From: Methanosarcina spelaei
GTDB lineage: Archaea > Halobacteriota > Methanosarcinia > Methanosarcinales > Methanosarcinaceae
DNA: 57,644 nucleotides
Assembly (NCBI RefSeq): GCF_002287235.1
Contig: NZ_LMVP01000538.1
Location: 1-57,644 of the forward strand
Direction: 5' to 3'
This document shows positions 5,052 through 11,637 of the stretch, piece after piece (the first letter of the stretch is position 1; each line of letters begins with the position of its first letter). The position numbers and the translations under genes are program-made. Under the pieces are notes generated by a model that searched no databases, was not told where the DNA came from, and worked only from the letters and a program-made list of their open reading frames with translations.

Positions 5052-5215
5052 CTCTACTCCTCCAGTAATACATTTTACCTTCTTTAAACTTCAGGGAGAA
5101 CATAGAGCCTTAGAAATACTTTGAAATAGCGCGTTATATAACGTTTTACTTCTTAAAACACCGCCAAACCTAGCTCTCCCTTAAAAATATTTTTATTTTA
5201 GGTAAAATATTTATT

Positions 5216-5303
5216 GAGCCTATCCCAAAACATTATCTAATCTACTATTACCGCCAATATTATAACTACTATTCTGGCATTATATTGGTTTTGGGATAGG
5301 TTC
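5216..5303. mobile_element. Small MITE (88 bp) with GAGCCTATCCCAAAAC ends
   Basis: Sixteen-base terminal inverted repeats with one mismatch (5216-5231 and 5288-5303) enclose 56 bp with no coding potential. A possible 3-bp target duplication ATT flanks it. The ends resemble those at 8222-8379. It lies in the 577-bp non-coding interval 5052-5628, where I see nothing else. Confidence 0.7.
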
Positions 5304-5628
5304 ATTTTAAAAAATACAAAATCCACCAGGAGACAAGTGATATTTTCCGATAAATATTTTTGAAACCTTCAGTTACTAAGTAAACGAAGATTATAACTGA
5401 AATACATTCAAAGATATTTAATAATTTGGTTTTCAATTCAGAGAGTCGAACATTACACAATAAGAGAAATTGCCCTTTAAAAAATAAGTTTTGAAGGAAT
5501 CCTAAACTTTAAGGTTTTATAGATTTTAATGAGAATTTAATTCCAGTTAATATCGATAAAAGGATAATTCTAAAACTTAAAAATGTTTAAAAAGAGAAAA
5601 TAACGTTTATTTTTGCCAAAAAACGTTT

Positions 5629-6381: not shown

Positions 6382-7157
6382 TTAACATAAAGAATCTATT
6401 TCTGTTATCTATGCAGTAAAAAGAATAAGAAATTTATTACTACGGGAACGCAGAGGGTCACGAATACCCGTCCTTCAGGAGTTGTCCGACAATTCAAATT
6501 CAGGGCAAAAATCTGTAAAAAAATAAGGCTTTTAAAGCCTTTAAATAAAAAAAGGAGGAATTTTATCGCTAACTACGGTTGTGAAACAGCCTGTGGAGGT
6601 TTGGGTATTCATAATTCTTCGCGCTCCCAATTTAATTGTTGGGAGTTGTGAGATCAGCTCAAAATTACTTTTCTAGATCTTGTATCCCACTTTCCGCACT
6701 TGAACACAAATGTAGAATTTATTTGCCTAATTGCCCAAAATAATTCGTTTAAGGATAGGCTAATCTTAATCTACTGCCATACTGGGAAAGTTGATTGCGT
6801 TTTTGTGTGCATCTGCGGAAAGTGGTTTTTTTGTAAGTAACTGTTCGAGCTTCTGAATTTTGGATTCCAATCTTTGATGCCACCTCTGATTGAATTCCAA
6901 ACATTACAATTTTTAAACACCTATATAATCTGTATTACCAAAGTCTCTAACAATTAACACTTTAATCAACTTTATAAACATTGGTGATTGAAACAAATCA
7001 GTGTGTTAATTTTTATCAATGCATCCGTTGTGGGATGAGTTCATAATAAATGTATAACGAATTAAGGGGAAATCAAGAGAATAATAATCTCTATCTAATT
7101 CCTTTAAGTTGAAAAGCTACGAAGGAGAAATCATCCTACTAAACGTTAGATGGTATA
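6382..7157. other. 776-bp non-coding interval
   Basis: No gene is supported here. A hairpin AAGGCTTTTAAAGCCTT near 6529-6545, with T-rich sequence on its minus-strand 3' side, could terminate transcripts coming from the DUF1638 gene. The stretch 6435-6520, including CCCGTCCTTCAGG, is reminiscent of an IS200/IS605 end, but too little is preserved to call. Confidence 0.4.
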
Positions 7158-8057
7158 TCACATATCTTGTAAGTTATGGAAAAATGATTTCAGAGTATGC
7201 TGGATAACACCGTTTTTGGCTGTCCTGTAGGACTTCTCTGTAAGTTCCACACTTCCTTTTACTTCCATAATTTCCGTGTTGAAAGTGCGGGCAAAATCCT
7301 GGACATTTTTATGGAAATCAGGATCGTATGAAAGGCCAGTATCAAGTTTTACAACTCGTGAGTACCTAGGGTCCTTCAGGAAATTATCTCTGAAATTCCG
7401 GGATTTCTTTCTTTCTTCTTCCATCTGCTTCCAGCTCGAAGCCCACATGGACGTGAAGTAGAGGGCGCCAGTCCCCCTGCAGGCGTACATGATTTCGTCG
7501 TAGGCGGCGTTTCCACCGAGAGCGGCGCTTATGCAGTCTGCCACAACTTCCCCATTTCCGTCTTTCAGCCAGTAAAGGGGGCAGTCAAGTTCCGAAAAGT
7601 TTTCTTCCAGATTCTCAAAGGCTTCTCCGCAGCTGCAGTAAAAGAGGAGGATTCCATCCGAAAACGAGGCCATTTCTTTGATATTTTTGTAGATTTCAGA
7701 CTTAAGGATATTAAGATCATCATGAAGCCCCAGTCTAAGGGGGGGGTTTACGACCACCGTCACCCTGTGAGCCGCTTTGAGTTTTATCTTCTCGTGAATT
7801 TTTCTGAAAAAAGGAAGTATAAACAGGAGTTTTGAAATCGTCATCAAGCCAGAGTCGTTCCCGTTTCCCAGGAGAAAGGGAACCTTGTCCAGGGGCGTTG
7901 TTCTGGGCAGGCAGTTATCGGATTTGAGCTTCTGGAGTAGCCCGAAACTATCCTTGCCTTCCACCACAATCAACTGCTCCAGTTCTCTATCACTCTAAAT
8001 GATATGGGAAAGTTCGTCCTCAAACATCCTGCAGGCGATAATACTCAGTATGGGCAT
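7158..8057 (-). CDS. DUF1638 family protein with an in-frame amber codon (candidate pyrrolysine protein)
   Basis: The frame begins with ATG at 8057, seven bases after AGAGG, and reads MPILSIIACRMFEDELSHII. It then meets TAG at 7997-7995 (codon 21) and continues without interruption for 278 more codons to the stop at 7158. The part after the amber codon carries the DUF1638 signatures: VTVVVNPPLRL, ILLFYCSCG, and YACRGTGALYFTSMWASSWK. Both sides of the TAG belong to the family N-terminus, so a start downstream of it (such as TTG at 7973) would lose conserved sequence. Methanosarcina decode UAG as pyrrolysine and DUF1638 genes are often near corrinoid methyltransferase genes, so read-through giving a 299-residue protein is plausible. 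A simple nonsense mutation is the alternative. Confidence 0.75.
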
Positions 8058-8221
8058 GTGAAAACCTCTTTCAGACTGTTTTTTATTCTGCTTCCAATTT
8101 AGGTAGTTTTGCATATCCCGTCATAACGGTATATTTGCATTTTGTATGCTAATATCACTGTTTTGGGTTACGTTGCAAAAATTGTGAGGAAATTCAATGG
8201 GATAAACAGAAGCTCAGGAGT

Positions 8222-8379
8222 GAGCTATTCCAAAACTCAGTATTGAATCTCTAAGTTTCAAATTCCTATAAAATTAAGTTTTTAATCATGAAAATTATTC
8301 CGAAATTCACCTTATAATCTGAAGTTCTCTATTGATTATCCTTAATTTGACAAGTCATTTTGAGTTTTGGGATTAACTC
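8222..8379. mobile_element. MITE-like inverted-repeat element (about 158 bp), family of 5216-5303
   Basis: The left end GAGCTATTCCAAAACTCA (8222-8239) and the right end, read inward, GAGTTAATCCCAAAACTCA form imperfect terminal inverted repeats. They share the core TATCCCAAAAC-like sequence with the element at 5216-5303. The interior is AT-rich and non-coding. No certain target duplication is visible. Confidence 0.55.
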
Positions 8380-8550
8380 CTATAAAAAAATAGGTGTCAT
8401 CAGTTACCTGTTAAAATTAAATTTTTCTTTATAAGGTTATAAAAGTATAAATAACATTATCATGTTACAAGGTAATAACAAAAACGACATAATTTAAATG
8501 AATATATTACGAATTAATATAAATATGATAAAAATGAGGTGTTAATTATT

Positions 8551-9828
8551 ATGTTAAGCCAAGAATGTATGTTAATTACTGAAAGTAAAATCGATATACA
8601 CAATATTCAAGACACGTGGAACGCAGCGATTGCTCATCAAAAAAATGGTGATTATGATACAACAGCAATGGCTGACATATACAGGCGTATGGATCCCAGC
8701 CTAACGATGAAAGATATTGCTAATGTATTCAGTGCGGTATATGCGGATAATTATTGGAATGGAATAAAAATGGATTCGTCTTTACTTGCTGCTTGTATGG
8801 TGAAGTCTGTAGGCTATGATCCAACACTGGCTCAACAATATGCGTCTTCTGCCATGCTTCAGTGGAGAGGTATATTGATCAGAAGGCTTCAATCGGATCA
8901 AGGAAAAATTCCAGAAAATGACAATTGTAATTGCCTGGATATAGTGTGCAACGAAAATACTCCTCTTGATGCAGAACAGTTAATTACAAATTGGAACAAT
9001 AAATTCTGGAATAGATCGCAAACTGACAAAAATTATGTATATGTTCGTTGTCAAAATCTTCAATTTTTGGGAGCCCTTACTCCAAAAGTAAAGGTGTTTA
9101 ATGCTGATCCCGGTTTTAATCAAAGGCCATCAGACTGGGTACAGCTGGAAACTGTAAACACTGGAGATATTGAAGGAGTTGTAAATCTTATTAATGGAAG
9201 TCCGGGTCCTATGAATATTAATGTTCGTGGAGTTAGTGAAGCATTTATGTTTGACCCTAAAACTGCAAAACATTCATGCTTAGTTGCTGCAATTACCACG
9301 GATTTCTTTACCAAATCCGATCCTTTAACGATATCCGGGAATTGGGACGCAGCAACCTGGCGTAGAAATAACGGAGCGAGTGGGTGGCTTAACGTAGATC
9401 CTATTGCAGTTGAGTCAACTCTCAAATTTAATAACCTGGATGGCCGTCCTGAAAAATTTGCTTTTGAAGCCCATTGCAATAAAGTGCCGGAAGGTACAGT
9501 GGTAGCTCTTAGATGCAAGGACCCTCAATTGTCTGATATAGATAGCGGCGATGTTAAAGTATCGCGTGGATTCCAAATTGTCTCTACCGAAGGTGTGGTT
9601 CCTGCGAATTATAAAGGTGATCTGGAAGTGTTGATAAAAACTCCAGATAACATGCCAATTCCTAAAGAATCTTCTGTTGAGGTGAAGATGATATGGATTT
9701 TAGATCATAATCATGACCGATATTTAGATGCCGCTGATATGCTTGATTTTAATGAAGGGGCTAGAGCATTGAGAAGTGTAAGAGTACCTATGGGCAGCTT
9801 CACTTTCATGGGGTCTCTTAAAGAATAG
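8551..9828 (+). CDS. Orphan 425-residue protein with an EF-hand-like loop
   Basis: I do not recognise this protein. The ATG at 8551 is chosen because GAGGTG (8535-8540) stands about ten bases upstream; a GTG at 8539 overlaps that site. There is no signal peptide or membrane helix. The N-terminal half (about 1-130) is helical. A middle part contains CNCLDIVC and beta-rich segments. Near the C-terminus, LDHNHDRYLDAADML has the D-x-N-x-D-x-x-x-D spacing of a calcium-binding EF-hand/dockerin loop. It is followed by a nested MITE cluster, and no operon partner is present. Horizontally acquired or lineage-specific origin is possible. Confidence 0.75.
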   Translation: MLSQECMLITESKIDIHNIQDTWNAAIAHQKNGDYDTTAMADIYRRMDPSLTMKDIANVFSAVYADNYWNGIKMDSSLLAACMVKSVGYDPTLAQQYASSAMLQWRGILIRRLQSDQGKIPENDNCNCLDIVCNENTPLDAEQLITNWNNKFWNRSQTDKNYVYVRCQNLQFLGALTPKVKVFNADPGFNQRPSDWVQLETVNTGDIEGVVNLINGSPGPMNINVRGVSEAFMFDPKTAKHSCLVAAITTDFFTKSDPLTISGNWDAATWRRNNGASGWLNVDPIAVESTLKFNNLDGRPEKFAFEAHCNKVPEGTVVALRCKDPQLSDIDSGDVKVSRGFQIVSTEGVVPANYKGDLEVLIKTPDNMPIPKESSVEVKMIWILDHNHDRYLDAADMLDFNEGARALRSVRVPMGSFTFMGSLKE

Positions 9829-9920
9829 ATGTGATAACGTAGCGATGTAATTATGGATCATATTAACTGGATGGCTCTTCATAAGCAAAAAGGATTTTAG
9901 AGTCTGTTGATTGGTCCATA

Positions 9921-10236
9921 TAGGACTTACGCGGTTAAACCCAAAAAAGTGACATGGAACATTAAACTTCACTTCATGCGTCTTCGGTTAAGTGAAGAAT
10001 CTTGATAAATTGCCCCCACTTCCTCAATAGTTGTAAAATTTTTGATTCTATTGTAGGCTGGAACAGGGTATCGATTTCATGTGAATTGGCCAAAATTTAA
10101 GGTAGGCTTCTGGTGCAAAATCGATAGATTTCGGGCAAGAAAATTCCTTAACCGATAACCAATGAACTTCACTTTCTACATTACTTATTGCAGAACGGCT
10201 TATACTTTATATAGTTCATTTACTGCGTAAGTCCTA
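9921..10236. mobile_element. MITE with TAGGACTTACGC ends, itself interrupted by a type B MITE
   Basis: TAGGACTTACGCGGTTAAA at 9921-9939 and, read inward from the other end (10236), TAGGACTTACGCAGTAAA are terminal inverted repeats. Without the 190-bp type B element and its duplicated 10 bp, this element would be about 116 bp long. It has no coding capacity. Confidence 0.75.
9975..10164 (-). mobile_element. MITE-like element, type B, copy 2 (190 bp), nested
   Basis: The ends are CATGCGTCTTCGGTTAAG and, read inward, CATTGGTTATCGGTTAAGG. It is flanked by an exact 10-bp duplication AACTTCACTT (9965-9974 and 10165-10174). The interior, read on the minus strand, matches the type B copies at 3871 and 52617 (CGATTTTGCA, CTTAAATTTTGGCC and CCTATTGAGG-like blocks). 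It inserted inside the TAGGACTTACGC element, so that element is older. Confidence 0.88.
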
Positions 10237-10407
10237 CCACAATTAAATCTTAACATCCTTACTATTTTTCATGATTAGGTTAAATTAGGTTAAACAGTAA
10301 GGATGGCAATGTAACCCATATTTCACAGTACTTTTTTTGAAAATCAATACTTTTGTAAAACTAGTCGAATTTTGAGACAGCCTGAAAAGGATTTTTTAGT
10401 TTGGTTC

Positions 10408-11637
10408 TTAACAAACTTTCTCAATAATCTCTTCCAGCGTCAGAAGTTCCTGTTCTCCTGATACCATATCCCTCAGCGTAAGCTTCCCTGCTTCTAATTC
10501 TTTTTCTCCGACTATGACCACGTAGTCGGCATTGATGGTATTTGCATAGGAGAGCTGGGCTTTGAAGTTACGTTCCATGAGGTCTACATGGACCGGCACA
10601 TATTTTCTTAATTCATTTACAAAACCTATCGCTTCCAGATGGACATCGGGTTTCGAGATCAACATAATGGTTTTAGGGGCAGGAGGAGTGAGAGGGCAGA
10701 TCTCCATAATCCTGTCAAAACCTATCCCGAAGCCGGTTGAAGGCACATCTCCGCCTCCGAAAAGCTGGATAAGCTGGTAAGAGCCTCCACCGCATACCTG
10801 TTTCTGGGCACCGAGGCCTTCGGCATAGACCTCAAAAACCATGCCTGTGTAGTAGTCAAGCCCGCGTGCAATCCCGAAATCAAGGGAGTAATCGACTTCG
10901 TATGCGTCGAGAAGCTTGAGGGTCCTTTCAAAGCTCACAAGCTCAGGAATATTTCCTACGATTTTTATTACTTCAGGAAGAATATGCCTGCCTTCAAGCT
11001 TGATCAGGTGAAAAAGGTCGGATTTGAGCTGTTTTTCGGCCCCTATCTCTTCAAGCAGGGCTTCGAGACCTGCATACTCTTTCTTGTCCACAAGCCGCAT
11101 GACATTGCTCACGATTTCGGGTTCAAAACCGCTCAAGAGCGTACGTATGACTGCAAGGTTTCCGAGCTTCATGTCACCCTTCACTCCTACGGCTTTTAAC
11201 ATGGCGTCGGCAAGGGCAATAACCTCGGCATCGGAATCGGGTTTTCCGCTTCCTATAAGTTCAACCCCGAACTGCCAGAACTCCCTGAAACGACCTTTCT
11301 GGGGACGCTCATAGCGGAAACAATTCTCGAAATAAAACAATTTCAAAGGTTTTGGAAACGGCTGAAGTTCGTTTATATACAGGCGCATGACAGGAGCAGT
11401 AAGCTCAGGCCTGAGAGTCATTTCCCTGCCGCCTTTGTCCGTAAAGTTGTAGAGTTCCCCTATAATCCCTTCCCCTGACTTCAGGGTGAAAAGATCTAGA
11501 TGTTCAAACGTGGGTGTAATAATCTCACTGTAGTCCCATTTGCGGGCAACGTCTCGCATAACACTTTCCACGTATCTTCTCCGGGCAGTATCGGCGGGTA
11601 AAAAGTCCCGGGTACCTCTTGGTCTATTAACTGTCAT
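10408..11637 (-). CDS. hisS: Histidyl-tRNA synthetase
   Basis: A 409-residue class II aminoacyl-tRNA synthetase that charges tRNA-His. Motif 2 [10 protein letters not shown] is near residues 107-116, the histidine-binding signature ARGLDYYTG near 256, and motif 3 GFGIGFDRI near 303. These are followed by the C-terminal anticodon-binding domain ([27 protein letters not shown]). The ATG at 11637 is chosen because AGGTG lies nine bases upstream; an in-frame GTG five codons earlier overlaps that ribosome binding site. Length is normal for an archaeal enzyme. It is monocistronic, followed by non-coding DNA with MITEs. Confidence 0.97.

Follow-up and report, generated by a model that had tools for sequence, protein, structure and literature searches.

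The window analysed here, a stretch of 57,644 nucleotides corresponding to an entire contig in a draft Methanosarcina assembly (5.09 Mb in 559 contigs, 99.9% complete), contains a DUF1638 gene interrupted by an in-frame TAG codon, and the question it raises is whether this codon ends a gene that has recently died or is translated as pyrrolysine. The gene is encoded on the minus strand, a detail that can be added to an earlier note on this DNA, with its ATG at 8057 and a terminal TGA at 7160-7158; a plus-strand reading of 7158-8057 encodes nothing sensible. As that note had stated, codon 21 is TAG (7997-7995, minus strand) and the frame then stays open for 278 sense codons up to the TGA, giving 299 codons plus the stop if the TAG is read through. 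Its account of the upstream part also agrees with the orthologues: codons 1-20 (MPILSIIACRMFEDELSHII) encode family residues in all of them, and a GAGG ribosome-binding site (8065-8068, minus strand), positioned 7 bases 5' of the start codon (AAAGAGGTTTTCAC-ATG), is common to them. Because both the 20 residues before the TAG and the ribosome-binding site are kept in orthologues, the upstream frame is genuine and a chance upstream ORF is excluded.

The remainder of the gene is intact. The window protein matches Pfam DUF1638 (PF07796) over residues 107-276 (E=5.5e-37; 127.6 bits against a cut-off of 27), and it retains all 24 columns that are invariant in an alignment of 25 family members, so the family motifs are preserved, as had been claimed. 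No further lesion besides the TAG was found in the DUF1638 gene, and the sole private structural change is an in-frame 3-base insertion in a run of C (NPPLRLG versus N-PLRLG). Two substitutions considered as signs of decay, Cys to Trp and Pro to Ser, were dismissed, both being common to the two nearest orthologues. The longest conventional ORF (7158-7973, minus strand) starts with TTG at codon 29, and a start at this codon would drop strand 1, helix 1, and the invariant residues Cys9, Asp14, and Glu15. The main rival to neutral acquisition of a translated UAG is that the gene is a young pseudogene, in which the TAG acts as a nonsense codon, translation yields no more than a peptide of 20 residues or an N-truncated, unstable protein initiated at codons 29-32, and later lesions are still pending. 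A GGAG motif that precedes the TTG/GTG starts at codons 29-32 fits this reading, which we regard as a serious minority possibility.

Comparison with relatives, proposed earlier as a check on whether the codon is conserved, returned a Ser sense codon in every orthologue examined. In the closest orthologues (74-86% identity; about nine or ten genomes) codon 21 is TCG or TCC, in paralogues at 51-56% identity it is TCA or TCG, again Ser, and distant homologues from Methanolobus and Methanohalophilus mostly have Glu at this site. Among all homologues examined, none carries TAG at site 21, where a sense codon, mostly for Ser or Glu, is found. The TAG is private to this lineage, where it arose from TCG by a single base change. 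An assembly or sequencing error, with TCG as the true codon 21, would leave the same picture, and the genome is indeed a draft in many contigs; however, an isolated C-to-A error here would be hard to account for, and the same pattern is seen in three other genes through different base changes, so we consider an error very improbable.

The position of the codon also bears on what a pyrrolysine could do there. In a structure model of the protein (mean pLDDT 83, confident), residue 21 is the last residue of the first helix (10-21), at a site where residues differ between subfamilies and which is probably exposed to solvent. The orthologous residue, Ser, is not Lys-like, a point against pyrrolysine read-through. 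Neither a sequence relative among solved structures nor a significant fold neighbour of the model was found. A conserved functional pyrrolysine is ruled out, because the TAG is private, occurring in none of the homologues examined, and orthologues have Ser. The earlier note had left it open whether pyrrolysine would be functional or merely tolerated; tolerance is the more likely of the two, and a special function finds no backing in homologues that all have sense codons at this helix-end site. A catalytic role for pyrrolysine in the window protein is likewise not supported.

The host is equipped to decode UAG as pyrrolysine, as had been supposed. Both pylT and pylS, whose presence had been listed as a check, are in the genome: the gene for tRNA-Pyl(CUA), with CTA as its anticodon, and a pylS match of 410 bits. 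ORFs that we take to be pylB, pylC, and pylD lie in that order and adjoin RamA and a corrinoid methyltransferase gene, presumably MtbA, these names having been assigned by reading the sequences. The MttB gene contains a single in-frame TAG inside its Pfam domain, near codon 334, where M. barkeri MttB has its pyrrolysine (Pyl334; PMC9842639). MtmB was not found in the assembly, and MtbB occurs only as frame fragments at contig ends (G000:C152:3-158 and G000:C156:4007-4162, G000 being the window's genome), which probably reflects assembly gaps and collapsed multicopy genes. This decoding machinery argues against the pseudogene reading. However, TAG also terminates 13 of 342 long ORFs (3.8%), and the pylB frame itself terminates at TAG. 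The pyl genes and the TAG of MttB, set beside these TAG-ended ORFs, imply that UAG is both sense and stop in this genome, as it is in M. acetivorans (PMC2933860), and its continued use as a stop counts against read-through.

Substitution rates bear on whether the gene is still under constraint. Fitting a codon model to ten sequences gave an overall omega of 0.33, with 0.44 on the window branch versus 0.32 on the background (2dL 0.61, not different), and omega = 1 on the window branch was rejected (2dL 4.69, p = 0.03). The window branch is thus under purifying selection, its omega being an average that takes in the periods preceding and following the origin of the TAG. Had the whole branch been neutral, the expectation is about 2.2 stops, against far fewer than one after a recent loss. 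These expectations and the omega values together mean that the gene was constrained over most of the branch, and that a recent death would look alike. The lack of a second lesion and a branch omega below 1 therefore speak against the pseudogene, but a short neutral interval itself predicts one stop or none (P(<=1 stop) = 0.93-0.99 at 0.02-0.05 substitutions per codon). The earlier argument that a dead gene would gather further lesions is consequently weak, since a recently dead gene would not have them yet. That the stop is TAG is also weak evidence alone, because 41% of the nonsense outcomes reachable by chance in this gene are TAG.

Further evidence comes from other interrupted genes in about 1.05 Mb, around a fifth of the genome, screened together with 0.8 Mb of the relative G008. 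Unfiltered matches to G008 proteins were swamped by antisense ORFs and a filtered set was used; a composition-based screen, weak at N-termini, recovered few real cases. Three more genes in the 1.05 Mb are intact except for one private TAG where near relatives have a sense codon. The first encodes a CLC chloride channel with CBS domains (L078:12888-14660, minus strand, TAG at 13118-13116; G000:C543), and its orthologues, 93-95% identical, have AAG (Lys). The second, a DUF2115 gene (L070:11205-11675, plus strand, TAG near 11247; G000:C368), lies between pylD and a pair of DUF1638 genes, and the codon is GAG (Glu) in an orthologue of 78% identity. The third encodes a GNAT acetyltransferase (L132:6141-6566, minus strand, TAG near 6434; G000:C516), with TGG (Trp) in the five orthologues checked. 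The Ser, Lys, Glu, and Trp codons of the four TAG genes are each one base from TAG. No equally clean TAA or TGA case was found among twenty higher-ranking candidates: one TAA lay in a beta-propeller fragment that is itself truncated, and one TGA was common to relatives. This outcome favours tolerance of UAG as a sense codon and argues against the pseudogene, in a search that was not fully symmetric across stops, the DUF2115 case having come from a TAG-only ORF listing, and in which numbers were small. In a broad count, TAG made up four of six interruptions, which is not a significant enrichment (P = 0.19). The genome also holds what are probably real pseudogenes: a GntP permease gene (L108 around 10637-11332, minus strand) looks dead because it is frameshifted besides carrying an in-frame TAG, a case that lends weight to the young pseudogene and counts against read-through.

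The distribution of the DUF1638 gene is a point on the side of the pseudogene. Comparison of the locus among relatives shows that the gene is accessory and patchily distributed: the segment that contains it (7077-10340) is missing in the close relative G004, where the flanks, 91-96% identical (94% for the right flank and 91% for the left in the segment comparison), are 67 bases apart, and in G022 the gene is present and adjoins the same downstream neighbour. The window's genome has four further DUF1638 loci. Loss of the gene would cost little, because it is accessory and has four paralogues, and its accessory status weighs against read-through. One apparent second TAG-bearing DUF1638 gene, scored as having one TAG at locus L005, was discarded, the TAG being that gene's own terminal stop.

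Published work backs the association of DUF1638 with corrinoid methyl transfer that the earlier note had mentioned. In Phaeobacter the family has been tied to the reactivation of B12 for methionine synthase (PMC5764234), and in Ruegeria to growth with methylated osmolytes (PMC12478193). Genetics suggests a corrinoid/B12 auxiliary role for the family member PGA1_c13340 of Phaeobacter inhibens (PMC5764234), from which the window copy differs in its in-frame TAG, and by analogy the window copy probably has an auxiliary part in corrinoid-dependent methyl transfer. Two tandem DUF1638 genes follow a TetR gene about 2.2 kb 3' of pylD (L070:12897-14700, plus strand), an arrangement that suggests a tie between DUF1638 and methylamine metabolism. 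A selected role for pyrrolysine, or regulated read-through, would have the UAG couple production of full-length DUF1638 protein to the supply of pyrrolysine, that is, to growth on methylamines. The paralogues near pylD and the link of DUF1638 to corrinoid reactivation and methionine synthase (PMC5764234; PMC12478193) are in keeping with such coupling, but TAG is conserved in no homologue examined, a search for PYLIS-like RNA structure 3' of the UAG revealed nothing special (z -0.32), and no pyl or methyltransferase gene stands beside the DUF1638 gene in the window. We consider this the least probable of the explanations.

Together, a host with pyl genes and a canonical pyrrolysine protein, a UAG that is private, and a gene otherwise intact lead us to favour neutral capture of a UAG codon, which we hold on balance to be probable. 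The single base change, TCG to TAG at Ser21, arose in the window lineage alone; we hypothesize that at least some of the ribosomes reaching the UAG insert pyrrolysine, yielding full-length protein, and that pyrrolysine at this permissive site, where helix 1 ends, would be tolerated and not required. Read-through is proposed because the cell has genes for charged tRNA-Pyl; the product may be active and the change neutral. The methylamine methyltransferases MtmB, MtbB, and MttB resemble this gene in that a UAG interrupts an open frame in a host with pyl genes, and are loosely linked to it through corrinoid methyl transfer. Their UAG, however, is conserved and catalytic, whereas that of the DUF1638 gene is private, sits at a Ser/Glu helix-end site, and belongs to an unrelated family. 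The closer parallel is Thg1 (tRNA-His guanylyltransferase) of M. acetivorans, in which pyrrolysine was physically observed and was not essential (Heinemann 2009, via PMC2933860). Both genes have a species-specific in-frame UAG with sense codons in orthologues, both occur with pyl genes, and neither encodes a methyltransferase. They differ in that pyrrolysine has been seen and is dispensable in Thg1, whereas in the DUF1638 protein it is predicted, and in that the DUF1638 gene is accessory and has paralogues.

If the UAG is read through, the gene would be a further natural example of a pyrrolysine protein that is not a methyltransferase, and with the CLC, DUF2115, and GNAT genes added, this Methanosarcina would be well suited to measuring the neutral drift of UAG towards a sense codon. 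The case is also a warning that automated gene calling will miss or shorten such genes in organisms with pyl genes. A bolder proposal, that the DUF1638 protein is made in full only on methylamines, as one of about 20 conditionally expressed, lineage-specific UAG genes in the genome (a count scaled up from the four seen in about a fifth of its length), seems to us highly unlikely.

The variable segment has other features. A 429-residue ORF (8539-9828, plus strand) with no Pfam match adjoins the DUF1638 gene within it. Dispersed repeats lie at 9973-10166, 6829-6964, and 5215-5305 of the window, and the repeat of about 190 bases, present in many copies in several Methanosarcina genomes, is located at the edge of the segment.
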